From Pseudomonadota bacterium (lineage in GTDB: Bacteria > Pseudomonadota > Alphaproteobacteria > SHVZ01): a stretch of 64,000 nucleotides of DNA. This document shows, piece by piece, positions 2,812 to 17,285 of the stretch. Location of the stretch: NCBI GenBank assembly GCA_016195085.1, contig JACQAG010000026.1, positions 124,001 to 188,000 on the forward strand, in the 5' to 3' direction. Positions within the stretch are counted from its first letter, which is position 1. Every line of letters begins with the position of its first letter. The notes beneath the pieces were generated by a model. It was not told the origin of the DNA. It was given only the letters and a program-made list of their open reading frames with translations, and did no database searches. The position numbers were made by a program, and so were the translations under genes.

Positions 2812-2839
2812 TGTGGTGATCAAATATTTTTTGAAACTG
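2812..2839 (+). repeat. Left terminal inverted repeat of the transposon
   Basis: 28 bp beginning TGTGGTGATC and ending GAAACTG. It matches the reverse complement of 17253-17280 at 25 of 28 positions, with differences at positions 6, 7 and 17. It contains the outermost left copy of the CAAATA-N5-TTGAAAC motif (2821-2837). Confidence 0.88.
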
Positions 2840-2957
2840 CCCTCTAGGAAAATCAGGCCGATAGCAGGGACCAAGATCGTGGACTCGGAAATAGATTTTG
2901 AAACTATGATTGAGGGCAGCGAGCGGGTTTCGGTAGGCGCTCAAATAGTTTTGAAAC
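2821..2957 (+). repeat. Three spaced subterminal repeats of the left transposon end
   Basis: Copies of a 16-17 bp motif, consensus CAAATAGTTTTTGAAAC, lie at 2821-2837, 2888-2904 (first base G) and 2942-2957 (one base shorter). All have the same orientation and start 67 and 54 bp apart. Spaced transposase sites at one end and close-packed sites at the other are typical of Tn7-type ends. They are probable TnsB/TniA-type binding sites, inferred from layout. Confidence 0.8.
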
Positions 2958-3215
2958 TCGCCTCTCGCCTCACCCCTAGGGGCATGAGCGTAATTGGCGA
3001 CCCTGATCGGTGCCGCAGCTTGACCCTGGTAACGGAAGTAGCTCCCAGCGACCGAGAGCGCAGTTTCGATCATAAGCTGGCAATCGGTCCTGAAAACAGT
3101 GGCGATACAAATCACCGGAGGGATTTGAACTCCCAAGCAATCATTAGGATTCTCGAGGGCCGACGTTTCCACTCAGGGCCTGCAGCCGTGTGGGGGCCAG
3201 ATGGGGGGAATCTTC
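2958..3215. other. Subterminal non-coding stretch of the left transposon end
   Basis: The whole 408-base gap between the amidase and the metF-like gene (2808-3215) holds the left terminus, its repeats and this stretch. No open frame here resembles a protein. A T-arm-like sequence on the minus strand (3118-3136) is not followed by a foldable tRNA. No clear terminator for the leftward operon was found. Confidence 0.5.
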
Positions 3216-4229
3216 TCAATCGCTCGACGCTCCGATTGCCGGGCAATGCATGCCACCGGCGCGCCCTTTCAGCACTCCTGACTCATGGACGATTTCCGGG
3301 ACAAACTGCGTCTGGCGGTAAGCCATCACATGGACGCCGGCTACTCCAGGAATCTCCCGCACCTCTTGAATGATCTCGATGCACAATTGTCTTCCTTCGG
3401 CCCGCTGATCTCGTGCGCCTTCCAGCCGGGCGATGACGCTGTCCGGGATATGAACGCCTGGCACATGGCGCCGCATCCAGCGTGCGGTTCGCACCGATGA
3501 GAGCGGACCGGTTCCGACGAGAATGTAGCAACTTTGGTCTATGCCGAGGTCGCGTATCCGTTCCATGAAGGCTCGCAGCATCGGCACGTCGAAGCAGAAT
3601 TGCGTCTGGACGAACTGCGCGCCGGCAGCAACCTTCTTGGCCAGCCGCAGCGGACGAAATTCGAAGGGCGGCGCAAAAGGGTTTTCGGCGGCGCCTAAGA
3701 AGAGCCGTGGCGGTGATGTGATTTTTCGCCCCGACAAGAACATCCGCTCGTCCCGCATGCGCTTGATGGCGCCAAGTAAAGAGACGGAGTCGAGATCGAA
3801 CACGGGCTTCGCTTCCGGATGGTCTCCGGCCTGGACGCCGTCGCCCGTCAGGCACAGTACATTGGAGACACCCATCGCCGCAGCGCCAAGCACGTTTCCC
3901 TGAATTGCGATCCGGTTGTAGTCGCGACACGAAATCTGAAGGATCGGCTCGTAACCGGCTCGGATGAGCAACGCGCACATTGCCACGCTCGACATGTGGC
4001 AATTGGCGCCCGACCCATCGGTCGCATTGATCGCGTCGACCGCGCTGCCGAAGAGCGTCGCTCTGTCGAAAACGTCCTTCGGATCGGCGGAATCGGGCGG
4101 ATCGAGCTCCGCGGTGACAGCGAACTCGCCCCGGCGGAGCACATGTTCGAGCCGCCCGGCCGAAACCTGCCCCGCTTCGAATTGTGCGGCATCGAGATGG
4201 CGCGCGACGTCCGCTTGGGGTTGGTTCAA
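3216..4229 (-). CDS. metF: Methylenetetrahydrofolate reductase (MetF-like), O-demethylation-linked
   Basis: 337 aa; reduces 5,10-methylene-THF to 5-methyl-THF or runs in reverse, in the cytosol. The barrel motifs include AELDPP near the N-terminus (catalytic Glu region), the folate/flavin segment ISCRDYNR, and LTGDGVQAGDHPEA. The start is a TTG at 4229 that overlaps the TGA of the preceding gene (TTGA), giving tight translational coupling. In Sphingobium, LigM-type demethylation makes 5-methyl-THF, which a metF next to ligM re-oxidises. Its place in the same regulon as a LigM-like gene argues for that role rather than methionine synthesis. Confidence 0.85.
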   Translation of the reverse strand: MNQPQADVARHLDAAQFEAGQVSAGRLEHVLRRGEFAVTAELDPPDSADPKDVFDRATLFGSAVDAINATDGSGANCHMSSVAMCALLIRAGYEPILQISCRDYNRIAIQGNVLGAAAMGVSNVLCLTGDGVQAGDHPEAKPVFDLDSVSLLGAIKRMRDERMFLSGRKITSPPRLFLGAAENPFAPPFEFRPLRLAKKVAAGAQFVQTQFCFDVPMLRAFMERIRDLGIDQSCYILVGTGPLSSVRTARWMRRHVPGVHIPDSVIARLEGARDQRAEGRQLCIEIIQEVREIPGVAGVHVMAYRQTQFVPEIVHESGVLKGRAGGMHCPAIGASSD

Positions 4230-4753
4230 GATCCGGACTCACCACCGTCGAGCGCGTGCTCACCCCGGCTGACGGCGAGCCAGGATGACCTCTCTTTGAG
4301 GCGATGATCGATCGGTATTTGCGGTTGCCGGATCCGATCGCCGCATCGCATTCGAAGCGATCCTTCCCATGCCATCACCCAAACGCACGGCATCTCGGCA
4401 TCGATTTCACAACGGCCGTCAGGCCGCACCCCGCCGCAAGGTCCATTCCGGAGACCTTTCGGACAGTTCATCGGGCATGACATTCCTGTCGACGACAGGA
4501 TGCATTGACCGCACATGCGACAGTCGAACAGAGCGCCCTTGACCGCGCGCTCGATCGAGGCAACCGGCGCCTCCAAGCGGTCGAACCCGATCCATCTCAG
4601 GACGAGCCCGCTGGCGATCAGGACGCGTTCGAAACGGCAGTAGAGGAACTCCAGCAATCGCGCATGCCGTACGCTCCAAGACCGGCGGGCTGCGCCTACT
4701 CTATTGCCGGCGCGCCTTCCGGTCGGTTCGAAGGCATATAGAGCAGAGGGCAT
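4226..4753 (-). CDS. MetV-like methylenetetrahydrofolate reductase C-terminal-domain protein (cysteine-rich)
   Basis: 175 aa. The C-terminal half carries a dense cysteine motif, CRMCGQC at about residues 93-99, followed by SCPMNCPKG and NGPCGG. This is the signature of the zinc/cysteine domain that accompanies MetF in acetogens (MetV) and in some MetF fusions. The ATG at 4753 leaves a 20-bp gap to the dioxygenase; the longer open frame upstream overlaps that gene and is not used. It ends by overlapping the MetF-like TTG start. It probably forms a complex with that subunit, either as a partner for electron transfer or to shift the direction of the reaction. Confidence 0.75.
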   Translation of the reverse strand: MPSALYAFEPTGRRAGNRVGAARRSWSVRHARLLEFLYCRFERVLIASGLVLRWIGFDRLEAPVASIERAVKGALFDCRMCGQCILSSTGMSCPMNCPKGLRNGPCGGVRPDGRCEIDAEMPCVWVMAWEGSLRMRCGDRIRQPQIPIDHRLKERSSWLAVSRGEHALDGGESGS

Positions 4754-4773
4754 GACGCCAGACCCGATTGCGC

Positions 4774-5640
4774 TCAGCGTGCCCGGTCGAGCGTGAAGTC
4801 GTATTGGAGATGGAAATAGGGCCGATCGACCTTGCTGCCGTCGGGCGCTTCGCCTACTGAGCAGCTGCGATAGGAGCGAATGAGCGAGTCCTTCACTCCA
4901 AACACAGCATCTGAGTCGAGATACTGATCGCCAGCGGCAAACACGTGGGTCACCAAGGGGTGATACCCCGGGGCCTCGATCATGAAATGCACATGCGCGG
5001 GTCGCCATGGATGCCGACCTTGAGCTCCCAGCATTCGTCCGACGGGACCATCATGGGGGATCGGATAGGGAGCAGGCCTTATTGTCCAAAAACAAACATC
5101 ACCGTGCTCGTCCGCTCGAAATCGCGCCCGCATGGCATGCCCCCGGTTCGGTTCCGAATGCTGCACGTCGTAGTAGCCGTCCTGATCCGAGTGCCATACG
5201 TCGACGACCGCCCCTGCGATCGGCTTGCTATCCAGACCGCGAACGGTCGCAGATACGTAAAGCGGGGCGCCCTTCATGCCGCTCGAAATATCGGAGCCCA
5301 GCGGATACTCGGGAGGATTTTGGACGTAGAAGGGACCGAGCACGGTCGTCTGGGTGGCGTCAGAGGACAGCGCATTGTTGATGGCATCGACCAGCATCGA
5401 GACGCCGAGGGTGTCGGACAGGAGAATGAACTCCTGACGTTTCTCGTCGCACATCTGACCTGTGCGCGTCAGGAACTCGATGCCGGCAGTCCATTCACGC
5501 TGCGTCGGCCTCACCTCGCGCACGAATGCGTGAAGATGGCGGACCAGCGCCTCGCTGATCTGCCGAATGCGGGGATCCGCGGCGCCTTGGATACGTTGGA
5601 GGACGGCATCGGTAATCGTCGACTCATCGAAGTTCCGCAT
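4774..5640 (-). CDS. Hydroxyquinol 1,2-dioxygenase (intradiol ring cleavage)
   Basis: 288 aa; cleaves 1,2,4-trihydroxybenzene between its adjacent hydroxyls to maleylacetate, using non-haem Fe(III). All four iron ligands of the intradiol family are visible: Tyr in DQDGYYDVQ, Tyr in APYPIPHDG, and the two His in RPAHVHF. The N-terminal helical dimerisation domain is present. ATG 5640 is chosen because GGAG precedes it at good spacing; an in-frame ATG at 5652 is possible. The next enzyme, maleylacetate reductase, is directly upstream in the operon, which favours hydroxyquinol over catechol as substrate. Confidence 0.88.
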   Translation of the reverse strand: MRNFDESTITDAVLQRIQGAADPRIRQISEALVRHLHAFVREVRPTQREWTAGIEFLTRTGQMCDEKRQEFILLSDTLGVSMLVDAINNALSSDATQTTVLGPFYVQNPPEYPLGSDISSGMKGAPLYVSATVRGLDSKPIAGAVVDVWHSDQDGYYDVQHSEPNRGHAMRARFRADEHGDVCFWTIRPAPYPIPHDGPVGRMLGAQGRHPWRPAHVHFMIEAPGYHPLVTHVFAAGDQYLDSDAVFGVKDSLIRSYRSCSVGEAPDGSKVDRPYFHLQYDFTLDRAR

Positions 5641-5674
5641 CGCTGTCTCCATCCCTCGGCCGAGTCTCGGCGGC

Positions 5675-6817
5675 TCAGCGCCTCGCCTCAACGGATACGC
5701 TCCCCCGGGCCAGTCCGCTGGCCTCCGGGCGTGATCCGGACCACGCCCGGAGGAGCAGCTGAAGTATGGCTTCGCGTTCGACTGGCCGCGGGTTCCAGTA
5801 AGGTTGAGTAACGGCGAGATTCGCCACGCGTTCGATCCCAGCTCTAGGCATGCCAATGTCGCGAAGGGCGAGCTTCGCATCGAGGCGCTTGGCCAAGTCG
5901 TAGATCCCCTGCGCCGCGTCCGTTGCGCCGAGCGCGCGTGCGATCCGATCCATAGCCTCAGGGGCGCACGACGCATTGTATGCGAGCGCGTGCGGCAGTA
6001 TGATCGTGTGCGCTTCTGCGTGCGGCAGGTCAAAGGAGCCGCCCAGCGTGTGACAGAGCTTATGGTGTAGAGCCATACCGACCGCTCCGAGGCACGTTCC
6101 GCAGAGCCAAGCGCCGTAAAGAGCTTCCGAGCGCGCCGCCAGATCGCGCCCATTCTCCACGACCAGAGGCAATGCCCTGGCAAGCGCTGCGATCCCCTGC
6201 TCGGCCATGAGCGAGATCACGGGATTGCAGTCCTGTGCATACAGCGCTTCGGCACCATGGGCGATCGCGTTCATTCCGGATGCGGCCGACAGAGCGGTCG
6301 GCAAGGTGCAGGTAAGGTTCACGTCATAGATGACGGCTTCGGGCAGAACCTTCGGGCTTCTCTGCGTCGTTTTCACACCCTCCCGGGTCTCGCCTAGAAT
6401 CGGCGTCATCTCCGATCCGGCGTAGGTGGTGGGTATGGCGAGCTGCGGCAGATCGGTCCTGAGTGCGATGGCCTTGGCGAGACCGATTGCCGATCCGCCA
6501 CCGATCGCCACCAACCCGTCGACTTTCAGATCGCGCGCGAGCGCCAGCGCCGCTTCCGTTACCCTGACCGGCGTGTGCATGGCCGCGCCGGAAAAGAGAA
6601 GTACGGCCCGATCCCCCAGCCGGAGCATGATGTCTCGTGCCGGCGTCTCATGATGCGGGCCGCACAGGACGAGCGCCCGGCTCAGCCCCAAGCGCTCACT
6701 CTCCTCACGCACCCGGCCGACGGTTCCCGCGCCAAAGACGACGCGGCTCGACAGCGCCTGGTAGACGAAGTCCTTCATGACCAGTCGCCGCCCATCCGGC
6801 AGTGGCAGCCTCCACAT
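5675..6817 (-). CDS. Maleylacetate reductase
   Basis: 380 aa; NAD(P)H-dependent reduction of maleylacetate to 3-oxoadipate, entering the beta-ketoadipate route. It belongs to the iron-alcohol-dehydrogenase fold but has the FVYQALSSRVVFG opening and GGGSAIGLAKAIA nucleotide-binding stretch typical of maleylacetate reductases. PTTYAGSEMTPI and HHKLCHTLGG are family blocks. The ATG at 6817 has AAGGAA 9 bases upstream; homologues usually start at the ATG at 6778 (MKDFVYQ), so 13 residues may be extra. It lies 30 bp after the flavin hydroxylase and 34 bp before the dioxygenase. Confidence 0.9.
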   Translation of the reverse strand: MWRLPLPDGRRLVMKDFVYQALSSRVVFGAGTVGRVREESERLGLSRALVLCGPHHETPARDIMLRLGDRAVLLFSGAAMHTPVRVTEAALALARDLKVDGLVAIGGGSAIGLAKAIALRTDLPQLAIPTTYAGSEMTPILGETREGVKTTQRSPKVLPEAVIYDVNLTCTLPTALSAASGMNAIAHGAEALYAQDCNPVISLMAEQGIAALARALPLVVENGRDLAARSEALYGAWLCGTCLGAVGMALHHKLCHTLGGSFDLPHAEAHTIILPHALAYNASCAPEAMDRIARALGATDAAQGIYDLAKRLDAKLALRDIGMPRAGIERVANLAVTQPYWNPRPVEREAILQLLLRAWSGSRPEASGLARGSVSVEARR

Positions 6818-6847
6818 ATGGCGATTTCCTTCTGCATGAGGCGCGCC

Positions 6848-8542
6848 TCAGTGGGCAACCGAACGGGCGCGCCGCTCAGGCCAGGGGACATGCCTGCCGA
6901 GCAGCGTTTCCACCACGGCATCGGCATTCACATCGCTCTCGCCGCGCCAGGCGACCACCTGATCGGGCCTGATCAACGCCAGCGGCGCCTCATACAGCTC
7001 GCGCAGTCTGGAGGACTCGACGTGGACGATTTCAAGCTGCATGCCCGCCGCGAGGGCCGCCGTTTTCAAGCGCTCTCCTGATGGCGGATCAGCGCCGATC
7101 CGCAGCAGCGTCCAGTCGAACCCGAAGGCATCGAACAGCGAGCGCCCGTCATCCAGCCATAAATGCGGCGCACGGCCACCCGGGGACGCCGTCGGCTGGT
7201 AGACATGGGCATTGTCGGGAGGGATCGGTGCACCGTCCGGCACGATAATGGTCGACGTATCGTAACGCGCCCCAAACGTCACTCCCGGGATATTGAACTC
7301 GGATTTTCCGTGGCGCTCGAGATAGGCGCCAGCCTCGCGCCGCAGCTCACGGCCCAGATCATCATCTCCTTCGAGCCCCGGCTTGGCGACGAAGCAGCCG
7401 AGCGACTCTGCGAAGGCGCGTGCATATCCCGTATTGCGTACGGCCACCGGGCGCCGCTCGATCTCATAGGTGTCGAGCAGTCTCTCGTCCGCAACGCCCT
7501 TCACCACCGATGCGAGCTTCCAACCCAGATTGACTGCATCCTCTACGGCTGTGTTGTAGCCAAGGCCTCCAGCAGGAGTGAACAGATGGACGGCGTCGCC
7601 GCCGAGCATGACGCGTCCGCTCTGGAAGCGATCGGCGACGAGCGCGTGACCGGCTGTCCAGGATCCACGCGACAGAAGCTCCGTGCGGACCGGTGCGCCG
7701 ACCGCCGCCAGGAACATGCTCAGCGCGTCAGCATCGCTTATGCGGTTCTCGTCTTCGCCGTCCCGCAGCTGCGTGTGGAATGCGAACTCGCCCTTACCGT
7801 CGACGGCGCACATGAAGGCGCGACGATCCTGATTGAAGGCCACGTTCATCCAGGCGGGCTGATGCGGCACCACCTGATAGAATTCCGGGGCGCGCAAATA
7901 CAGCGCCAGCATCCGACCCCCGAAGAAGTCGCGGACCGCTCCGGTCTCGCCGACATAATGAAAGCCGAGCTGACGCCGGACGAAACTGCGCGCGCCGTCG
8001 CCGGCGGCGAGATAGCGTCCGCTTACCGTCCTGCGCCTGCCATTCGTTGCATCTTCGACTTCGGCAATGACGCTGTCGCCGACGTCGGAGAAGCCGGTGA
8101 GCCTCCATCCGAAGTTGATAGTCACCGTCTCGAGAGCTTTGGCGTGGCGGAGGAGCACGTGCTCGACAAATTTTTGCGACACCCGGTGCGGGAGCTCCGC
8201 CGCGCTCCACGAGCCCGAGAGGCCTCTGACCCGGTCGCGTGCTTCCCGTGCGGACGGAAGCCCGAAGCGCGCAAGCTCGTGTTTGGCATAGCGCGTGAAG
8301 TACGCGATGTCGGTCGGGAAATCCGCGGTGAGACCCAACTCCCTGATCTCATCCGCAATGCCCAGCCTGCGATAGTATTCCATCGTCCGGGCCTGGGTGG
8401 CGTTGGCCTGCGGATTGAATGCAGTCGATTGCTTTTCGTCGAAGAGTTCGGTGCGAATGCCTCTGCGTCCGAGCTCAATGGCAAGCATCAGCCCAAACGG
8501 CCCGCCCCCCACGATCACCACGTCGACGTTCGTGGAAGGCAT
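6848..8542 (-). CDS. FAD-dependent aromatic hydroxylase (class A flavoprotein monooxygenase)
   Basis: 564 aa, the PheA/TfdB/MhpA size class. The FAD dinucleotide fold is at residues 7-20 (VVIVGGGPFG), and the second FAD site GDAVHLFTPAGGLG is in the middle, followed by NTAVEDAVNLGWKLA. A thioredoxin-like C-terminal domain follows. It uses NAD(P)H and O2 to hydroxylate a phenol. It is the first gene of the leftward operon, so it most likely makes the hydroxyquinol that the next enzymes use, perhaps by oxidative decarboxylation of protocatechuate or vanillate. The exact substrate is inferred. Its own promoter and operator lie just upstream at 8579-8607. Confidence 0.85.
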   Translation of the reverse strand: MPSTNVDVVIVGGGPFGLMLAIELGRRGIRTELFDEKQSTAFNPQANATQARTMEYYRRLGIADEIRELGLTADFPTDIAYFTRYAKHELARFGLPSAREARDRVRGLSGSWSAAELPHRVSQKFVEHVLLRHAKALETVTINFGWRLTGFSDVGDSVIAEVEDATNGRRRTVSGRYLAAGDGARSFVRRQLGFHYVGETGAVRDFFGGRMLALYLRAPEFYQVVPHQPAWMNVAFNQDRRAFMCAVDGKGEFAFHTQLRDGEDENRISDADALSMFLAAVGAPVRTELLSRGSWTAGHALVADRFQSGRVMLGGDAVHLFTPAGGLGYNTAVEDAVNLGWKLASVVKGVADERLLDTYEIERRPVAVRNTGYARAFAESLGCFVAKPGLEGDDDLGRELRREAGAYLERHGKSEFNIPGVTFGARYDTSTIIVPDGAPIPPDNAHVYQPTASPGGRAPHLWLDDGRSLFDAFGFDWTLLRIGADPPSGERLKTAALAAGMQLEIVHVESSRLRELYEAPLALIRPDQVVAWRGESDVNADAVVETLLGRHVPWPERRARSVAH

Positions 8543-8578
8543 GCCGGCAAGATCTCTCTGAGTTGTACCTTGCGATTA

Positions 8579-8607
8579 TTGGTAAGGAAACCGGACTATT
8601 TTGTCAA
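8579..8607 (-). promoter_or_regulatory. Promoter of the leftward catabolic operon
   Basis: On the minus strand TTGACA (8607-8602) is followed 17 bases later by TACCAA (8584-8579), about 37 bases before the hydroxylase ATG. The -35 box lies in the last codons of the MarR gene. The -35 is perfect and the -10 weak, which suits a regulated promoter. Confidence 0.6.
8580..8598 (-). promoter_or_regulatory. MarR operator O1 (19-bp dyad)
   Basis: Read on the minus strand: TAGTCCGGTTTCCTTACCA. It agrees at 15 of 19 positions with O3 at 10823-10841. It fills the space between the -35 and -10 boxes, so binding would block RNA polymerase. Its first three bases (TAG) are the stop codon of the MarR gene. 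Confidence 0.65.
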
Positions 8608-9147
8608 TGCGGTCCGGCGCCCTCCATTGCCGGGCGCTCGGGCCCTGTCATGGGCTTCGACATACGTCGCGAGCTGCTCGATCAACAGGGTCACCATCGT
8701 ATCTCCGAGCGTCTGCCTCATTTCCGACTCGGCGATGTTCAGGCTTTTATGAAAGGCCTCCAGCCAGGCAAATCCCTTCAGCGTAAAACAAACCAGCTTT
8801 GCCCGGCCATCCGATGGATCCGGCTTCTTCTCGATGAGACCCGTCCGCTCGACCTGATCGACCAGCTCGCTCATCGACTGCTTCGTCATCGCTGCCCGTC
8901 TCGCCAATTCGACCAGACGCGTTCCGTCTTCATCGAGGTTCCGCGTCAGATTGATATGGGCGACGGTCAGTTCACCGTGCCCCACGTCACGCAACAGCTC
9001 GATGATTCGCCCTTCGAATATTCGCACAGCCTCGTTCATGCGTCGCCCGATGTTATTGAGGCGCCAAGCGTTCTTCATGTTCGACGTCCGCTGTTGACGG
9101 GCTGGCGTAATCGCAATCTGGAGTCCGAGATAAATTTGGCGAACCAT
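8596..9147 (-). CDS. MarR-family transcriptional regulator of the catabolic cluster
   Basis: 183 aa from an ATG with AAGGTG at good spacing; a shorter 160-aa form from ATG 9078 (MKNAWRLNN) is closer to the usual MarR length. The winged-helix core is clear: RAAMTKQSMSELVDQVERTGLIEKKPDP is recognition helix plus wing, then DGRAKL. It lies divergent from the LigM-like gene with about 93 bp between. A 19-bp dyad there and two related dyads on the other promoters suggest it represses all three transcription units and is released by an aromatic ligand or CoA ester. Which start is used is uncertain. Confidence 0.82.
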   Translation of the reverse strand: MVRQIYLGLQIAITPARQQRTSNMKNAWRLNNIGRRMNEAVRIFEGRIIELLRDVGHGELTVAHINLTRNLDEDGTRLVELARRAAMTKQSMSELVDQVERTGLIEKKPDPSDGRAKLVCFTLKGFAWLEAFHKSLNIAESEMRQTLGDTMVTLLIEQLATYVEAHDRARAPGNGGRRTALTK

Positions 9148-9159
9148 ATCGAGTGCACC

Positions 9160-9188
9160 TTGACCGGGGAATAGGCGAGCGATAATAG
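9160..9188 (+). promoter_or_regulatory. Promoter of the LigM-like gene
   Basis: TTGACC (9160-9165), a 17-bp spacer, then TAATAG (9183-9188), about 52 bases before the ATG. The spacing is ideal for a housekeeping sigma factor. Confidence 0.65.
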
Positions 9189-9204
9189 TCAGGTAACCGA
9201 TCTA
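9186..9204 (+). promoter_or_regulatory. MarR operator O2 (19-bp dyad)
   Basis: TAGTCAGGTAACCGATCTA has dyad symmetry (TAG...GGT-N-ACC...CTA) and overlaps the -10 box and start point of the LigM-like promoter. It also lies upstream of the divergent MarR gene, so it would autoregulate. An outer pair ATAATAG/CTAATAT extends the symmetry to about 27 bp. Confidence 0.7.
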
Positions 9205-9240
9205 ATATGCTCGGCGCATCTTGAGGAAGGAAATCGCCGA

Positions 9241-10650
9241 ATGGCCGCTCTGCTGAAGTCACTTGAGGATCTGATCGGTGCGACTCCGGATCTCGTCGAT
9301 TATTTCTACAACGACACGGTGGCTCCTCACTTCAAGGCCCGAACCAGCCTGACCGCGGCGTTCATCCCGCCTGAGTTCACCAATTGGCGCGACGAACAGC
9401 GGGCCTGGCGCCACACGGCAATTCTGTTCGACCAGTCCCATCATATGCCCGAGCTCTTTCTCAAAGGGCCCGATGCTCTGCGGCTCCTCACTCGGTTGGG
9501 AATCAACACGTTCAAGAATTTCGCACCCGATCGAGCAAAGCAGTTCATCGCGTGCACGCCCCGGGGGCACGTGGTCGGCGACTGTGTCGCTTACTGTCTC
9601 GGAGCCGACAGCTTTGAGCTGGTCAGCGGCATGCCGGTGCTCAATTGGATCAATTATCACGCCGAGACCGGTGGCTATGATGTCGCGATCGAGCGGGACG
9701 ATCCAACCCCGTACAACCCGAAAGGCAGGCGGATCAAATACCGCTTCCAGCTTGAGGGGCCGAATGCGGGAGCGATCTTCCATGAGGCGGTCGAAGGAAG
9801 CGTCCCGGAGATTCCGTTCTTCCGCACCGCGCGTGTGAAGATCGCCGGCCACGAACTCCTCGTGCTCAGGCATGGCATGGCCGGACACCTCGGCGCCGAA
9901 CTCTCCGGACCCTATGAGGAGATGGAGCTGGTGCGCTCCCACCTGCTCGAGGTGGGCCGGAAGCATGGATTGAAGGCGAGTGGGACCAAAACCTACTTCA
10001 GCACCATTTTCGAGTTCGGGTGGATGCCATACCCTCTGCCCGGCATCTATACCGGAGACGAACTCGGCGATTACCGAAGATGGCTGCCAAGCGCCGGCTG
10101 GGAGGCCAATGCGCAGTTGGGTGGCAGTTTCTATTCGCCGAACATCGAGGACTATTACGTCACACCCTGGGATCTGGGCTACGGTCACATTTTGAAATTC
10201 GATCACGACTTCATCGGGCGCACGGCGTTGGAGACCATGGCAAATGGTGCGCGCCGCGCCAAGGTCACGCTGGTCTGGAACCGGAAGGACGTGCTGAAGA
10301 TTTTCGCGTCCCAATTCGGTGGCGGCCCGCGCTACAAGGCCCTCGATTTCCCCGTCGCCTATTATGGGTGGCCGCATTTCGACGAGGTGACGACTCCCGG
10401 CGGCGAACTGGTTGGCCTCTCCTGCCACTGCGGCTACTCGAACAACGAGGGCGAGATGCTTTCGCTCGCCATGATCAACGAGACCCATGCACAGCCGGGC
10501 ACGCCCATCGTACTGACATGGGGCGAGCCGAATGGCGGGTCGCGCAAGCCCCATGTGGAGCGGCACGAACAGGTGAAGATCCGGGCAACAGTGGCCTCGG
10601 TGCCGTATGCAAGGTCCGTCCAGGAGATGAAGAAGGCGGCAATTCGCTAG
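9241..10650 (+). CDS. ligM: LigM-like tetrahydrofolate-dependent aryl O-demethylase
   Basis: 469 aa, almost the length of Sphingobium LigM (about 471). It has the GcvT/aminomethyltransferase fold: LFDQSHHMPELFLKGPDA near residues 61-78 and the C-terminal beta domain with GGELVGLSCHCGYS. LigM and DesA move the methyl group of vanillate, 3-O-methylgallate or syringate to THF, giving 5-methyl-THF and a catechol. A strong GAGGAAGG site precedes the ATG. Glycine-cleavage GcvT is unlikely: the protein is too long, there is no gcvH/gcvP, and MetF-like genes lie in the same regulon. The substrate (vanillate or similar) is inferred. Confidence 0.85.
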   Translation: MAALLKSLEDLIGATPDLVDYFYNDTVAPHFKARTSLTAAFIPPEFTNWRDEQRAWRHTAILFDQSHHMPELFLKGPDALRLLTRLGINTFKNFAPDRAKQFIACTPRGHVVGDCVAYCLGADSFELVSGMPVLNWINYHAETGGYDVAIERDDPTPYNPKGRRIKYRFQLEGPNAGAIFHEAVEGSVPEIPFFRTARVKIAGHELLVLRHGMAGHLGAELSGPYEEMELVRSHLLEVGRKHGLKASGTKTYFSTIFEFGWMPYPLPGIYTGDELGDYRRWLPSAGWEANAQLGGSFYSPNIEDYYVTPWDLGYGHILKFDHDFIGRTALETMANGARRAKVTLVWNRKDVLKIFASQFGGGPRYKALDFPVAYYGWPHFDEVTTPGGELVGLSCHCGYSNNEGEMLSLAMINETHAQPGTPIVLTWGEPNGGSRKPHVERHEQVKIRATVASVPYARSVQEMKKAAIR

Positions 10651-10814
10651 TCTCGCCGCTTCGTCTCCGGTCGATATATTGTCCTTATTCCTGACTATCT
10701 CGTCGCAAAGCTTTTTGGCGTGCGGCACCATCGATCAGCCCTCCCGCGCATATTCTGTGCGGAACGATGGCGCCTTCTGCGACGACCCTAAGGATGTTGC
10801 ATCCCCGTCCCGTA

Positions 10815-10842
10815 TTGACAGTTAGTCTGGTTACCGTACTAT
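10815..10842 (+). promoter_or_regulatory. Promoter of the uptake/P450 operon
   Basis: Perfect TTGACA (10815-10820), a 16-bp spacer, then TACTAT (10837-10842), giving an untranslated leader of about 47 bases before the ATG at 10896. The 244-base gap before it holds nothing else recognisable. Confidence 0.72.
10823..10841 (+). promoter_or_regulatory. MarR operator O3 (19-bp dyad)
   Basis: TAGTCTGGTTACCGTACTA, the most symmetric of the three (TAGT...GGT-N-ACC...ACTA), placed between the -35 and -10 boxes. Together with O1 and O2 it defines TAGTC-N-GGT-WW-CC. Confidence 0.72.
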
Positions 10843-10895
10843 TTCGATTAAGAACGGGTCGCACCGGAAAGCCGCGTTTACCAGGGAGGAATCGG

Positions 10896-12062
10896 ATGAA
10901 GCCACTTCAGATGGCGAGTGTGATCGCAGGGCTCCTCGCCGCGCTGGTTACGTGCCCGTCCTCCGCCGAAACGATCAGGGTCGGCATCATCGCGACCTTC
11001 TCCGGGCCGAACGCGATCTGGGGCAAGCAGTTCAAGGAGGCGACGGAGGTCTACGTCGCAGAGCACGGCGACTCGATCAACGGCGACAAGATCGAGTTCA
11101 TCTACAAGGATGTCGCCGGGCCGAATGCGGACGCGAGCAAGGCCGCCGCACAGGACCTTCTGGTGCGCGATCAAGTCAAATACCTCGGCGGCTTCGACTT
11201 CACCCCCAATGCGCTTGCCGTCGCTCCGCTGATCACCCAAGCAAAGGTTCCGGCCGTCATCTTCAACGCGGCGACGTCGTCGATCAATAAGCAGTCCAAT
11301 TTCTTCCTGCGTACAAGCTTCACGCTCTGGCAGGTGTCGGTCCCGATGGCCAACTGGGCTGCGGCAAACGGTGCCAAGACCGTCATAACGGCTGTCACCG
11401 ACTACAATCCCGGCGTCGATGCCGAGACCGCATTCGCCAGCGCTTTCGAAAAGAAAGGCGGCAAGATCGTCAGCAAGATCCGCATGCCGCTCCAGACCAC
11501 CGATTTCGCGCCGTTCATGCAGCGCATCAAGGACTCCGGGTCCGACGGCGTGTTTGCCTTCCTGCCGGCGGGTCCTGCGACCTTCGCCTTCACCAAGGCC
11601 TACAACGAAGGCGGCCTGAAGCAGGCGGGAATCCGCTTCTATGGTACCGGCGAGACCGACGAGACGACCATCGATGCGCTCGGTGACCAGGCCACCGGTC
11701 TCGTCACGGCCTATCACTACTCGGACGCGCACGAGTCCGACTTGAACACGGCCTTCACGGCAAAGTTGAAGCAGATGTTTCCGAGCTCAAGAGCCAATCT
11801 CGCGTCGGTCGGGGCCTACGATGGCGTCCATCTGATTTACCAGATGATCAAGGCCGCCAAGGGCGACGGCGTGAAGGCGATCGAAGCGGCGAAGGGCCTG
11901 GCGTGGGAGAGCCCCCGCGGACCGGTCAAGCTCGATCCGGAGACCCGCCACGTCGTCCAGAACGTGTACATCCGGCGTGTCGAGAAGGACCCGCAGGGTC
12001 GGCTCATAAACAAGGAATTCGACACGGTCCAACAGGTACCGGACCTCGGGTTCAATCCCTAG
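10896..12062 (+). CDS. Branched-chain-amino-acid-type ABC substrate-binding protein (aromatic acid uptake)
   Basis: 388 aa. A signal peptide (MKPLQMASVIAGLLAALV...SSAE, cleaved near residue 25) is followed by a LivK-type periplasmic domain opening TIRVGIIATFSGPNAIWG. AGGGAGGA stands just before the chosen ATG; the longer frame upstream crosses the promoter and is rejected. Members of this family in catabolic clusters often bind aromatic acids rather than leucine. It is the first gene of a six-gene operon ending in a CYP199-like P450, so a methoxybenzoate is the likely ligand. Confidence 0.85.
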   Translation: MKPLQMASVIAGLLAALVTCPSSAETIRVGIIATFSGPNAIWGKQFKEATEVYVAEHGDSINGDKIEFIYKDVAGPNADASKAAAQDLLVRDQVKYLGGFDFTPNALAVAPLITQAKVPAVIFNAATSSINKQSNFFLRTSFTLWQVSVPMANWAAANGAKTVITAVTDYNPGVDAETAFASAFEKKGGKIVSKIRMPLQTTDFAPFMQRIKDSGSDGVFAFLPAGPATFAFTKAYNEGGLKQAGIRFYGTGETDETTIDALGDQATGLVTAYHYSDAHESDLNTAFTAKLKQMFPSSRANLASVGAYDGVHLIYQMIKAAKGDGVKAIEAAKGLAWESPRGPVKLDPETRHVVQNVYIRRVEKDPQGRLINKEFDTVQQVPDLGFNP

Positions 12063-12151
12063 CGATGGCCACTCGGCTTCGGGGTGGCAGCCCTTTGCCC
12101 GAGAGCCGGGAGCGTGACCTGCACCGCGCGTCTGGTCCCTCGGATTGATCG

Positions 12152-13012
12152 ATGTTGGTTGCGCTCAGCATCATCATCGATGGTGTCGCCTATGGGATGA
12201 TCCTGTTCATGATCTCCGTCGGACTCTCCGTCACGATGGGGCTCATGCGGATCATGAATCTAGCGCATGGTGGCTTTGCGCTCATCGGCGGTGCCATCGC
12301 GCACGCGCTGACGGTCCGCCTCGGCATCGATTTCGTTCCTGCCGCGATCTTATCGATCATGACCGCGGTGCTGATTTCGTTTGCTCTCGAACGGATTGTC
12401 TATCGCCCGATCTACCGCCTCGGAGAGCTCGGGCAGGTGCTCGCAACCATCGGCGTCACGTTCATCATCATTGCCATTGTCAATTTTTTCCTTGGCTCGA
12501 CGCTGCTGCCCATTCGGCCACCGTCCTTCATGACCGGCTCCGTTACATTGGGGTTCAAGACACTGCCAATGCATAGGCTGATCGTCATCGGCGCGGGCGC
12601 GATGGTCCTGGTGTTTCTCTATTGGCTCATCGAAAGGACCCGCTTCGGGATCTATCTGCGCGCATCGGTGGATAATCACGCCACAGCGGCCGCTCTCGGG
12701 ATCAACACCTCGAAGATCTATGCTGTGACCTTCGCTCTTGGGGCCGGTCTTGCCGCCCTGGGCGGCATGCTCGGAGCCGAGCTGCTTCCGCTCGAGGCCT
12801 ATTATCCGCTCCGCTACATGGTTCTGTTCCTCACCGTGGTTGCGGTTGGTGGGCTTGGCACCATCACCGGCTCGTTCGCGGCGGCGATGGGATTGGGTAT
12901 CCTTGATACGGGCTCGCGATATTTGCTCTCGGAGTTCGGAACGATCGTCTTCTTCCTGGCGGTCATGCTGCTTCTGTCCGCTCGTCCAAGAGGGCTCCTT
13001 GGAAGAGCGTGA
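12152..13012 (+). CDS. LivH-type ABC permease
   Basis: 286 aa, strongly hydrophobic with about eight membrane segments. It opens with IIIDGVAYGMILFMISVGLSVTMGLMRIMNLAHGG, the LivH family block, and ends with RPRGLLGRA. It forms half of the membrane channel of the LivKHMGF-type importer. There is an 89-bp gap after the binding protein and one base before the next start. Confidence 0.88.
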   Translation: MLVALSIIIDGVAYGMILFMISVGLSVTMGLMRIMNLAHGGFALIGGAIAHALTVRLGIDFVPAAILSIMTAVLISFALERIVYRPIYRLGELGQVLATIGVTFIIIAIVNFFLGSTLLPIRPPSFMTGSVTLGFKTLPMHRLIVIGAGAMVLVFLYWLIERTRFGIYLRASVDNHATAAALGINTSKIYAVTFALGAGLAALGGMLGAELLPLEAYYPLRYMVLFLTVVAVGGLGTITGSFAAAMGLGILDTGSRYLLSEFGTIVFFLAVMLLLSARPRGLLGRA

Positions 13013-13013
13013 C

Positions 13014-14000
13014 ATGCTCCAGGCTCCTGTGATCAGCGCGAGGGCTTGGAAGCGATCGACCTATCGCTTCACGCCGGAGCTGGTGATCCTCCTCGGCGCC
13101 GCGCTTGCATTCATTTGCTTTCCCTACGACCTCGGCTTTCTCACGCGGACCCTGATCATGATGATCCTGGTCCTCTCTTTGGACCTGATCTTGGGCTACG
13201 CGGGCATAGCGTCGTTGGGGCACGCCGCCATGTACGGCACGGGCGCCTATGCGGCAGGCCTGTTTGCCATTCATGTGACGCAAGAGCCGGTCCTCGGGCT
13301 CTTCGCGGGCGGAGCCGCGGGAGCTCTCGCGGCTTGGGCCTCGGGATTGCTCCTGCTGAGGACGCACGGGCTTGCGTTCCTCATGCTGTCCATTGCGGTA
13401 GCGGCGGTGCTTCAGGACCTTGCCTCGAAGGTCCGCTCCGTCACCGGAGGTGCGGATGGGCTGACCGGGATCACGATGGGCCCGGTGCTCGGCATGTTCG
13501 AGTTCGACCTGCCGGGCCGAACCGGCTTCTGGTACGCGTGCGCGGTACTCCTCATCGTCACCCTCAGCCTTCAGACGACCGTCAACTCCGCATTCGGCCT
13601 GGCGCTGCGCGGGATCAAGAATAGCCCTACGCGAATGCGCGCGATCGGGACACCCGTCTACCGGCGCCTCGTCAGCGCCTATGTGATCGCGGGCGCAGTT
13701 GCGGGGATTGCCGGTGCTTTGTCGGCGCAGATTACCGCGCTCGTCAGCATCGAATCCTACAGCTTCTCTCTCTCCGCCGAGATCATGGTGATGCTGATCC
13801 TCGGCGGCTCGGGGCGTCTCTATGGCGCCATTCTGGGCACACTCATCTTCGCGGTGATCCAGCACGTCGCTGCCGCGATCGATCCGTTCAACTGGCTGTT
13901 CGTGATCGGCGTGCTGCTTCTCACCGTTGTGTTCTTCGCCCCCGAAGGGCTCCTGTCGGTGCCGATCCGCCTGATCAGGTTGGCCAGGGGATCGTCATGA
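13014..14000 (+). CDS. LivM-type ABC permease
   Basis: 328 aa. The start is the ATG one base after the LivH stop; the longer frame overlaps LivH and is dropped. The family block LILGYAGIASLGHAAMYGTGAYA and the C-terminal FFAPEGLLSVPIR are present. About ten membrane segments. It pairs with the LivH-type protein and overlaps the next ATPase gene by four bases (ATGA). Confidence 0.88.
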   Translation: MLQAPVISARAWKRSTYRFTPELVILLGAALAFICFPYDLGFLTRTLIMMILVLSLDLILGYAGIASLGHAAMYGTGAYAAGLFAIHVTQEPVLGLFAGGAAGALAAWASGLLLLRTHGLAFLMLSIAVAAVLQDLASKVRSVTGGADGLTGITMGPVLGMFEFDLPGRTGFWYACAVLLIVTLSLQTTVNSAFGLALRGIKNSPTRMRAIGTPVYRRLVSAYVIAGAVAGIAGALSAQITALVSIESYSFSLSAEIMVMLILGGSGRLYGAILGTLIFAVIQHVAAAIDPFNWLFVIGVLLLTVVFFAPEGLLSVPIRLIRLARGSS

Positions 14001-14743
14001 CGGGGCTCCGGGTTGAATCGCTGTCGAAAAGCTTCGGCGGCATCGCGGTCGCGCGTTCGCTTACGCTCGAGCTGCCGCCCGGCTCGCGGACGGCGTTGAT
14101 CGGGCCCAACGGAGCCGGCAAGACCACCTTCGCCAATCTGATCACCGGAACGCTCAAGCCATCCAGTGGACGCATCACGCTCGATGGAGCGGACATTGGG
14201 GCGCTCTCACAGGCTGAGCGCGCCAAAGCCGGCATCGCCAAGACCTTCCAGATCACGAACCTGTTCAAGGACCTGACGGTCCGCGAGAATCTGCGGATCT
14301 CGCTTCTCGAGCGCGAGGGCCGCACCGGAAACTTCGTGACGCACAGTTGCGCCGTTCCGGCGATCGAGGAAGAGATCGAGGAGAATCTTGCACAATTCAA
14401 TCTCCTGCCGATGGCGGACAGACGCGTTGCGGACCTGGCCTATGGTCAGCAGCGCTTGATCGACATGGCGCTCGCGCTGGCGCTGCGCCCGCGGGTTCTG
14501 ATTCTGGATGAGCCGGCGGCCGGCGTTCCCTCAGGGGAAAGCCACCTCATCGTGAGCGTGATCAAGCGCCTGCCCGCCTCCTTGTCAGTGCTCATCATCG
14601 AACATGACATGAAGCTCGTGTTCGAGGTGTCGCATCGGATTATCGTTCTCGTGGCTGGCGCCATTCTGGTCGAAGGTACGCCAGAAGAGATCAGCCGCAA
14701 CGCGAGCGTCCGCGAGCTCTATCTCGGAGCTCGGCATGGCTGA
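13997..14743 (+). CDS. LivG-type ABC ATP-binding protein
   Basis: 248 aa. Walker A GPNGAGKTT at about residues 37-45, signature variant LAYGQQRLIDMA, Walker B VLILDEPAAG, and switch His in IIEHDMKLV. LivG proteins typically have SYGQ rather than SGGQ, as here. It powers the importer and is coupled by the ATGA overlap with LivM and an 8-bp overlap with LivF. Confidence 0.9.
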   Translation: MTGLRVESLSKSFGGIAVARSLTLELPPGSRTALIGPNGAGKTTFANLITGTLKPSSGRITLDGADIGALSQAERAKAGIAKTFQITNLFKDLTVRENLRISLLEREGRTGNFVTHSCAVPAIEEEIEENLAQFNLLPMADRRVADLAYGQQRLIDMALALALRPRVLILDEPAAGVPSGESHLIVSVIKRLPASLSVLIIEHDMKLVFEVSHRIIVLVAGAILVEGTPEEISRNASVRELYLGARHG

Positions 14744-15449
14744 ACCCATCTTGCGACTGAAGAACGTAGTCGCAGGTTATGGCGAGACGCATGTGTTGCA
14801 AGGGATCAGCTTCGATGTCAACAGAGGGGAGCGGCTGGCGATCCTCGGCCGCAACGGCGTCGGGAAGACGACAACCCTGTCGACGGTCATGGGCTTGACG
14901 CGGCTCCATCGGGGTACGATCGAATTCAAAGGTCGCGAGATCGGGAGACTACCGCCCTACCAACGCGCGCGCGCCGGGCTCGGTCTGGTGCCGCAGACGC
15001 GGGATATATTTACCTCCCTCACGGTCGAGGAAAACCTCCTGGCGGGTGCGCGCAATGGAGCCTTGATTGACCAGGCTTATGAGCTGTTTCCGCCTCTCAA
15101 GGCGAGGCGGGCAATCGGTGGCACGTTGCTCTCCGGCGGAGAGCAGCAAATGCTGTCGATTGCTCGAACCCTCATAGGTGCGCCGGACGTCCTGCTGCTG
15201 GACGAGCCTCTGGAGGGCTTGGCGCCGGTCATCCGCGACATGCTGATGGATACCTTCGAGACGCTCGCCGCGAGCCGCGGCCACACGATCGTCCTGGTCG
15301 AGCAGCATACGGCGCTCGCCCTCGAATTTGCCGATCGCGTGCTCGTGCTCGACCAGGGTGCCATCGTGCTCGAAGGGCATGCGGCAGACCTGAAAGGGCG
15401 CCCCGATCTTCTCGACAAGCACATCGGTCTTGCGCTCGACAATTCATAG
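14736..15449 (+). CDS. LivF-type ABC ATP-binding protein
   Basis: 237 aa. Walker A GRNGVGKTT, signature LLSGGEQQMLSIAR, Walker B VLLLDEPLEG, switch His in LVEQHTALAL. With the LivG-type protein it forms the ATPase heterodimer. It is followed after 12 bp, with an AGGAGG site, by the P450 gene in the same operon. Confidence 0.9.
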   Translation: MAEPILRLKNVVAGYGETHVLQGISFDVNRGERLAILGRNGVGKTTTLSTVMGLTRLHRGTIEFKGREIGRLPPYQRARAGLGLVPQTRDIFTSLTVEENLLAGARNGALIDQAYELFPPLKARRAIGGTLLSGGEQQMLSIARTLIGAPDVLLLDEPLEGLAPVIRDMLMDTFETLAASRGHTIVLVEQHTALALEFADRVLVLDQGAIVLEGHAADLKGRPDLLDKHIGLALDNS

Positions 15450-15461
15450 GAGGTCCAAGCG

Positions 15462-16685
15462 ATGACCACCAGCTTTGCGCACGGCGTCACTCCTCCAGAA
15501 GGCATTCCGATCTCCGACGTCGACCCGTTTTCCATCGATTTCTTCGAGAATCCACATAAATTCCACGCCGATCTCAGGGAGCTTGGACCGGTCGCATATC
15601 TCAGCCGCTATGGCGTGTACGGCCTGGCCCGCTACAAAGAAGTGCACGAGACTCTCAACAACTGGCGGATGTTCTCTTCCAGCCGTGGAGTCGGAATCAG
15701 CAACTTCGCAAAGGAGATGCCTTGGCGGCCACCGAGCCTGGTGCTCGAGACGGATCCGCCGACCCACGACAAGTATCGGGCGGCTCTCAATCGGGTCCTA
15801 TCGCCCACCGCGATGCGGGGTCTTCGCGAAGGCTTCGCGGCGGCCGCGGAGCGCAAAGTGGACGCACTGCTCGCCCGTGGTCGGTTCGACGGCATCGAGG
15901 ATCTGGCTGAGGCCTTCCCTCTTTCGGTATTTCCAGACGCGGTCGGGCTGCCCACGGAGGGTCGCGACCATCTGCTTCCGTATGCAAGGGTTGCGTTCAA
16001 CGCCTTCGGTCCACAGAACAACCTTCTCCAGCTCGCGATGGAACGCGCGGCCGCGCACATCGCGTGGGTGACCGAGCACTGCAAACGAGAGAATCTGGCT
16101 CCCGGCGGCCTTGGAGCTCAAGTGCATGCCGCCGTCGATTCGGGCGAGATCACCTCGGAGGAGGCGGCGCTGCTTGTGCGCTCCCTCCTCTCCGCTGGTC
16201 TCGACACGACCGTCAGCGCAATCGGCGGCGCCATCTACTGTCTCGCCCGCTTCCCGAGCGAGTGGCTGAAGCTTCGAGCAAATCCGGGGCTGGCACGAGC
16301 CGCCTTCGAGGAGGCAATCCGGTTCGAGAGTCCGGTTCAGACGTTCTTCCGCACAACCACCCGCGCTGTTCGAGTGGGGAGCGCGGAGATCGGCGAAGGC
16401 CAGAAAGTGCTGATGTTCCTCGGTGCGGCGAACAGAGACCCGCGCCGCTGGGAGAATCCGGATGTCTACGACATCGAGCGCAAGGTGAGCGGCCATGTCG
16501 GCTTCGGGTCGGGCGTACATATGTGCGTGGGCCAACTGTTTGCCCGGCTGGAGGGCGAGTTTCTCCTTTCGGCGATGGCTCGCAAAGTGAGTTCGATCGA
16601 GATCACCGGCGAGCCTCGGCGCGCTTACAACAACACGCTCCGCGGCCTTGCCAGCCTCCCTCTCGAATTAAAACCCGTCCACTGA
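15462..16685 (+). CDS. CYP199-like cytochrome P450 (para-methoxybenzoate demethylase type)
   Basis: 407 aa, soluble bacterial P450. The I-helix is LLSAGLDTTV, the K-helix E-x-x-R is EAIR, and the haem loop is GFGSGVHMCVGQ with Cys about residue 352. Long blocks (SSRGVG, PWRPPSL, LLVRSLLSAGLDTT, FFRTTTR) match what I recall of CYP199A2/A4, which bind para-substituted benzoates and O-demethylate 4-methoxybenzoate or veratrate, losing formaldehyde. The Arg-Ser pair before the I-helix motif is part of the carboxylate site in CYP199A4. No ferredoxin or ferredoxin reductase gene is nearby, so electrons must come from elsewhere. Confidence 0.88.
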   Translation: MTTSFAHGVTPPEGIPISDVDPFSIDFFENPHKFHADLRELGPVAYLSRYGVYGLARYKEVHETLNNWRMFSSSRGVGISNFAKEMPWRPPSLVLETDPPTHDKYRAALNRVLSPTAMRGLREGFAAAAERKVDALLARGRFDGIEDLAEAFPLSVFPDAVGLPTEGRDHLLPYARVAFNAFGPQNNLLQLAMERAAAHIAWVTEHCKRENLAPGGLGAQVHAAVDSGEITSEEAALLVRSLLSAGLDTTVSAIGGAIYCLARFPSEWLKLRANPGLARAAFEEAIRFESPVQTFFRTTTRAVRVGSAEIGEGQKVLMFLGAANRDPRRWENPDVYDIERKVSGHVGFGSGVHMCVGQLFARLEGEFLLSAMARKVSSIEITGEPRRAYNNTLRGLASLPLELKPVH

Positions 16686-17214
16686 GGCGGCCATGCCCAA
16701 GATCACAGCTGGCTCATTATGACCCAGCGCGAGGACAATGTGCGGCTGTAGCAGTGTGATCACTCGAGACGCTCTCAGCTTCAGATGACTTCTTCATCGG
16801 CGCCGCTGCTTTGCATGAGCAAAGGACGCACTTCAATTCCTTGCGCTTCCCATCCGTCTTCCACTGATCGCCTTTTCCAACCAGCCGATTTCCATTTCCG
16901 TTAGAGAGGAAAGCAGAAGGTCGGTGTACGCATCGAAAGGCGGAGTAAGAACCTGGCTGTGGATCGGCGTGGGGACTTGGCGCCGATTGGCACGGCAAGA
17001 TCTTAATTGGCAATGATACGCGGGGGTCAATTTGGCTTGCCGACTAACAGCTACGAGGTCGAAGTGCAGATTTTGACCGAGCCTGTACCGGGAGCAGGGG
17101 CACCCCTACCCGGGCGAGCGCAGCGCCCCTATGCCACTGTTTTTCGTTGATGGCAGTTTAAAATTTTATTTCAGTCCCTCAATTGCGGTGCCCTGGCTCA
17201 GATGATCCAGAGCT
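16686..17214. other. Non-coding right part of the transposon
   Basis: A stretch between the P450 stop and the right-end repeats. Short open frames on both strands have no recognisable content and irregular codon use. A weak hairpin (AGGGGC at 17096 with GCCCCT at 17125) followed by a T-rich run near 17138 may be the operon terminator. A degenerate fourth copy of the end motif lies at 17156-17172. No transposase remnant could be recognised. Confidence 0.45.
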
Positions 17215-17271
17215 GTTTCAAAAACTATTTGTTTGTTTCATAAACTATTTGTCAGTTTCAAAATATATTTG
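17215..17271 (+). repeat. Three tandem 20-bp-phased repeats of the right transposon end
   Basis: GTTTCAAAAACTATTTG at 17215, GTTTCATAAACTATTTG at 17235 and GTTTCAAAATATATTTG at 17255 start exactly 20 bp apart, two helical turns. They are in inverted orientation to the three left-end copies. Close packing here and wide spacing on the left is the Tn7-like asymmetry. Confidence 0.82.
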
Positions 17272-17280
17272 ATTGCCACA
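17253..17280 (-). repeat. Right terminal inverted repeat of the transposon
   Basis: Read on the minus strand it begins TGTGGCAATC and ends GAAACTG, matching the left terminus at 25 of 28 positions. It contains the outermost right repeat (17255-17271) and is followed directly by AGCGG. Confidence 0.88.
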
Positions 17281-17285
17281 AGCGG
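17281..17285. repeat. Right target-site duplication AGCGG
   Basis: Identical to 2807-2811. The remaining 27 bases to the stop of the next gene are ordinary chromosomal spacer. Confidence 0.85.

Follow-up and report, generated by a model that had tools for sequence, protein, structure and literature searches.

A predicted MarR-family repressor and three conserved 19-bp dyads as the likely control system of an aromatic-catabolism gene block in a transposon-like element

Introduction

In Sphingobium sp. SYK-6, the MarR-type repressor DesR controls ligM, which encodes a tetrahydrofolate-dependent O-demethylase, the ring-cleavage gene desB, and its own gene; it acts via similar inverted repeats and is released by vanillate and syringate (PMC6888825). 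The MarR repressor HpaR combines control of an aromatic degradation operon with autoregulation, and PcaV of Streptomyces coelicolor (4fht), a protein with the MarR fold, has been solved with its natural ligand. Mobile elements with Tn7/Tn5053-type ends, for their part, carry TGT...ACA inverted ends with several subterminal repeats at each end and are flanked by a 5-bp target duplication.

Here we analyse a gene block from an alphaproteobacterium that brings such features together. It lies in a stretch of 64,000 nucleotides, called the window throughout (contig JACQAG010000026.1). Going by the published description of DesR, the locus is like that system in placing a folate-dependent demethylase and ring cleavage under what we predict to be MarR-type control.

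Results

An earlier note on this DNA had proposed that three copies of a 19-bp dyad are the operators of a MarR protein. The dyads are present letter for letter at the places and on the strands that it gave. Candidate operator 1 (TAGTCCGGTTTCCTTACCA; 8580-8598, minus strand) lies between marR and the monooxygenase operon and begins with the marR stop codon; operator 2 (TAGTCAGGTAACCGATCTA; 9186-9204, plus strand) lies in the divergent marR/desA intergenic region and has lost its symmetry at several positions; operator 3 (TAGTCTGGTTACCGTACTA; 10823-10841, plus strand) sits between the -35 and -10 elements of the uptake/P450 operon. The string that they were said to share, TAGTC-N-GGT-N2-CC, is exact in all three, but it takes in only one arm and the central part of the dyad, which is an imperfect palindrome with an odd centre. 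The symmetric core reads TAGTnnGG-nnn-CCnnACTA, and the consensus of the three operators is TAGTAAGGTAACCTTACTA.

Within the window, TAGTCNGGTNNCC has three exact matches, all at the dyads; with one mismatch allowed there are six, against 1.6 expected from shuffled sequence, and none of 100 shuffles reached six. Pattern searches of the whole 4.81-Mb genome returned six exact matches to TAGTCNGGTNNCC, the three outside the cluster being without the second dyad arm, whereas the symmetric pattern TAGTNNGGNNNCCNNACTA with at most one mismatch occurs at three places, all in this cluster. The same pattern read backwards, used as a control, gave 14 matches per strand. A matrix built from 35 sites, all in relatives, recovered exactly the three window sites (27.5, 20.9 and 27.5 bits for operators 1, 2 and 3) plus a weaker fourth. 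At a threshold of 18 bits, dinucleotide-matched random sequence yields about 0.08 matches per Mb, which corresponds to about 0.005 in 64 kb, versus the three found.

The predicted regulator, a MarR-family repressor of 160 aa, is encoded at 8596-9078 on the minus strand. The earlier note had extended the gene to 9147, the limit of a longer open reading frame, but relatives start at the position of M24 of that frame or two codons before it, and most of them have stop codons upstream, so the ATG at 9078 is the likelier start. The protein exceeds the cut-offs of the Pfam MarR_2/MarR profiles (PF12802, 35.4 bits against 27; PF01047, 31.0 against 24.6) and reaches no NCBIfam equivalog cut-off. With a mean pLDDT of 81.8, its AlphaFold model resembles numerous MarR structures, including, with probability 1.00, the DNA complexes of MftR, ST1710, SlyA and HpaR, and the recognition-helix region, TKQSMSELV, is nearly invariant among relatives. 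The locus also has the arrangement looked for in this family, a palindromic operator of about 16-20 bp near the regulator's own gene and at target promoters.

When genome contigs were searched with the MarR protein, 15 close orthologs of 70-80% identity were found, in the same gene cluster. Most belong to Rhizobium, Neorhizobium, Pararhizobium, Mesorhizobium, Agrobacterium, Sinorhizobium, Chelativorans and Tianweitania, with several plasmid-borne copies, and one is on a groundwater metagenome contig; the protein was not found in the other genomes of the same order as the window (seven genomes in the order). Most of these relatives keep the gene order importer - desA - marR - monooxygenase. Their dyads fall on both sides of marR, in the gaps towards the divergent gene and the monooxygenase gene, as well as upstream of the binding-protein (SBP) gene, and every match of at least 18 bits is at one of these expected places or at a second site adjoining one. 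Operators 1 and 2 are kept in L012-L026, and operator 3 precedes the SBP gene in 12 of the 13 relatives that have that gene there (the match in L024 is weak). L022 has neither an intact desA nor the importer at the locus. L012 has desA downstream of the monooxygenase gene instead, with two dyads preceding it there. Searches of the relatives' whole genomes with zero or one mismatch placed nearly all of the matches listed inside the cluster, and some relatives have additional candidate sites several kb away.

These comparisons bear on whether the likeness of the three dyads could be chance, or the common ancestry of unconstrained DNA. The three sites are imperfect palindromes only, which is what one might cite in favour of this reading, but in the relatives the flanking DNA has diverged while the dyad is retained, and the rarity of the motif in both the genome-wide pattern search and the matrix scan contradicts chance. 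We consider this explanation negligible.

The weaker fourth match in the window, a candidate auxiliary operator, lies at 10679-10697 on the minus strand (TAGTCAGGAATAAGGACAA; TTGTCCTTATTCCTGACTA as read at these positions), scores 14.1 bits and is 144 bp upstream of operator 3. Nine relatives, near-duplicates counted (L012, L013, L015-L020 and L023), also have a second site, of 12-24 bits and 85-176 bp from the main one; such sites far exceed the expected number, about 0.006 for 15 stretches of 250 bp at a threshold of 12 bits. The fourth site may help repression from a distance or may serve a second promoter. Constant spacing, with helical phasing and a DNA loop, was considered and rejected for it: the spacings vary (85-87, 144-147, 168 and 174-176 bp), and because they are not constant we treat looping as a possibility only. 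In L017, the second operator lies inside a near-perfect inverted repeat of about 50 bp (6126-6175; AGTCCTCCGTGAATGA...TCATTCACGGAGGACT).

A different regulator, encoded elsewhere, might use the dyads, with marR merely adjoining them. A single motif can serve several proteins, and the link between this MarR and the dyads is drawn from sequence. However, the sites follow the presence of this MarR across genomes: all 16 loci that carry it reach 16 bits, compared with none of 40 control loci from the same class that encode a monooxygenase homolog (28) or a demethylase homolog (12) but lack it, one of which reaches 14 bits. Moreover, distant MarRs of 45-54% identity keep one or two diverged dyads, for example TAGTAAGGCTGCCTGACCA, at the junction of marR with the next genes (in Bosea, Paraburkholderia, Bradyrhizobium, Rhizorhabdus, Cupriavidus and G363), as found with a matrix that included the window sites and excluded the distant ones. 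Finally, the element contains no other regulator. We therefore judge a regulator from elsewhere to be very unlikely. The assignment of the dyads to this MarR, as the earlier note had it, is thus favoured by comparative footprinting in the 15 relatives, by the rearranged locus L012, by the control loci and by the distant MarRs, and the dyads are in all likelihood its operators.

In all of the distant clusters except that of Bosea, the neighbour of marR is an orthologous monooxygenase (57-62% identity), usually with genes for maleylacetate reductase and hydroxyquinol dioxygenase beside it. What persists from Alpha- to Betaproteobacteria (L043-L047) is the set marR - monooxygenase - maleylacetate reductase - hydroxyquinol dioxygenase, and the Paraburkholderia and Bradyrhizobium clusters also have a gene for benzoylformate decarboxylase (mdlC) in the vicinity. 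Two loci have dyads beyond the maleylacetate reductase/dioxygenase genes (L097, 7241-7259, 19.7 bits; L098, 9756-9774, 16.0 bits), which possibly mark additional members of the regulon. Dyads of the TAGT...ACTA type accompany even MarRs of 30-34% identity, at no more than about 120 bp from the gene (L036, 1915-1933; L037, 1394-1412; L039, 587-605), which hints at a wider operator class.

All three dyads overlap promoter-like sequences, although not equally well. The promoter scan found TTGACA-16-TACTAT straddling operator 3, and in the window TTGACC precedes operator 2 by 26 bp; in most relatives TTGACA is 1-3 bp ahead of sites 1 and 3 and about 26-28 bp ahead of site 2. The earlier note had put each site on a TTGACA/TTGACC promoter, which agrees with what we find except that the 8580 site has a poor -10 (TACCAA), which the scan did not call. 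Sites 1 and 3 take up the spacer and reach the -10; site 2 extends over the -10 and start of desA as well as the region upstream of marR. With the operators over the promoters in this way, steric occlusion and autorepression are the likely mechanism. The MarR protein might conversely bind all three sites as an activator, or activate at some and repress at others: the desA operator adjoins the -10 and stands in mirror orientation to marR, and some MarR-family proteins are activators. At operators 1 and 3, however, a dimer bound between -35 and -10 would exclude the polymerase, and activation is very unlikely. We take up repression again in the Discussion.

The dyads and the genes that they precede lie within a block bounded by inverted ends, at 2812-17280 (14,469 bp, 89% coding, 13 genes). 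The left end (2812-2958, plus strand) has a 30-bp terminal inverted repeat and three 17-bp subterminal repeats (2821, 2888 and about 2941); the right end (17215-17280, minus strand) is an inverted copy, also with three subterminal repeats, and the repeats of 2821-2958 recur inverted at 17215-17271. The outermost 30 bases, TGTGGTGATCAAATATTTTTTGAAACTGCC and TGTGGCAATCAAATATATTTTGAAACTGAC, begin TGTGG and agree at 26 positions. Directly outside them is a perfect 5-bp target duplication, AGCGG (2807-2811 and 17281-17285), and the stop codon of an amidase gene (1410-2807) immediately precedes the block. Its architecture is that of a transposon-like element. No transposase, of the DDE type or otherwise, was seen within it, the annotated genes and the two end stretches leaving no room for one, and the end repeats have no further copies in the genome. 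An empty insertion site was not found in the same order, where no amidase neighbour has the right-flank gene in the window arrangement, nor were the element ends seen in the relatives, whose loci were covered with up to 9-14 kb of flank. That the regulon covers the whole cargo, as had been proposed, holds literally: all 13 genes inside the inverted ends are either marR or members of three transcription units headed by an operator.

Reading leftwards on the minus strand, the first unit begins with an FAD aromatic-ring monooxygenase of the PRK06126 type (6848-8542), followed by an iron-type dehydrogenase that is probably a maleylacetate reductase, as its orthologs are annotated (5675-6817), an intradiol dioxygenase, probably hydroxyquinol 1,2-dioxygenase (4774-5652; best PDB match 1tmx, E 6.6e-91), a MetV-like protein (DUF5981, MTHFR C-terminal family; 4226-4756, start uncertain) and, from profile matches, methylenetetrahydrofolate reductase (MetF; 3216-4229). 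On the plus strand, desA (9241-10650) encodes a tetrahydrofolate-dependent aromatic O-demethylase of the DesA/LigM family, LigM/DesA-like yet under the equivalog cut-offs. Also on the plus strand are an aromatic-acid-type periplasmic binding protein (10896-12062), matching 4evs, 4f06 and 4ey3, which we take to be aromatic-acid binders, an ABC importer (12152-15449; permeases 12152-13012 and 13014-14000, ATPases 13997-14743 and 14736-15449) and a cytochrome P450 of the CYP199A4 family (15462-16685; E 8.5e-179 to 4dnz, CYP199A4), a family that demethylates para-methoxybenzoates. Several relatives have a different MetF-like open reading frame beside desA, identified by eye.

Discussion

Our analysis points to one MarR protein and three dyads as the control system of the element's genes, the best explanation overall, to which we give a probability of roughly 0.9. 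We infer that the 160-aa protein, as a dimer, would bind the three 19-bp dyads and repress, rather than activate, three transcription units: desA, with the same site also repressing marR itself; the operon running from the monooxygenase through maleylacetate reductase, dioxygenase and metV to metF; and the importer-P450 operon. Given that operators 1 and 3 take up the -35/-10 spacer and that operator 2 extends over the -10 and start of desA, repression would work by blocking RNA polymerase. The releasing ligand would probably be one of the pathway's aromatic acids (vanillate or a close relative). The earlier note had also named CoA esters as inducers, a suggestion that finds no support and is unlikely, as no CoA ligase is found among the clustered genes. 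Because the regulon is the whole cargo, induction would bring on uptake, demethylation by P450 and folate enzyme, hydroxylation and cleavage of the ring, and C1 recycling all at once.

Every gene of the block, which is predicted to import and degrade methoxylated plant aromatics, is very probably under the control of the one MarR and its three operators. MetF and the MetV-like protein at the end of their operon would recycle methyl-folate, and the parts of the pathway would connect if the monooxygenase acted on vanillate or protocatechuate with decarboxylation. More tentatively, we propose that a methoxybenzoate, once imported, undergoes demethylation by the P450 and by the folate enzyme, after which the FAD monooxygenase would convert it, by hydroxylation with loss of CO2, to hydroxyquinol (or its methyl ether); that this route is one transposon-borne, self-regulated unit moving between bacteria; and that the monooxygenase substrate also serves as the MarR ligand, common to the clusters from Alpha- to Betaproteobacteria. 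As a whole, this proposal falls somewhat short of even odds. A limited full-text literature search found no description of a methoxybenzoate-to-hydroxyquinol route, and nothing on point for the cluster, for the locus tags Swit_5060-5063 or for CYP199A with hydroxyquinol. The route is possibly not the only one in this genome, since elsewhere it has a gene pair matching the protocatechuate 3,4-dioxygenase profile below the cut-off and one LigB-family gene.

The operator, the regulator and the full gene list of an aromatic-catabolism regulon are predicted here from sequence alone at base-pair resolution, which makes them directly testable, and the predicted regulon is common to rhizobia and to Bosea, Bradyrhizobium, Paraburkholderia, Rhizorhabdus and Cupriavidus. 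The MarR protein with its operator is a candidate vanillate-type biosensor, and the genes provide a set for the candidate route from methoxybenzoates to hydroxyquinol, with the whole pathway packaged together with its own control in one transposon-like element.

In its ends the element resembles the Tn7/Tn5053 families, whose kind of inverted ends, subterminal repeats and 5-bp target duplication it shares. As for the regulator, PcaV is among the best fold matches, with 18% identity over the fold alignment, and comes from Streptomyces, without a close sequence link. HpaR (TIGR02337) is the best NCBIfam match by score, although at 31.8 bits against a cut-off of 121.2, and it differs in controlling other pathway genes. 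DesR acts at a 15-mer repeat, GTTTGTGTCACATAC (PMC6888825), whereas the operators in this cluster are TAGTnnGGnnnCCnnACTA and do not conform to the DesR operator GTTTGTGTMACATAC. Furthermore, the DesR genes effect protocatechuate/gallate ring cleavage by other dioxygenases, in contrast to the hydroxyquinol-type intradiol pathway with importer and P450 seen here. This difference in both operator and gene set suggests that we are dealing with a new MarR-type regulator, distinct from DesR.
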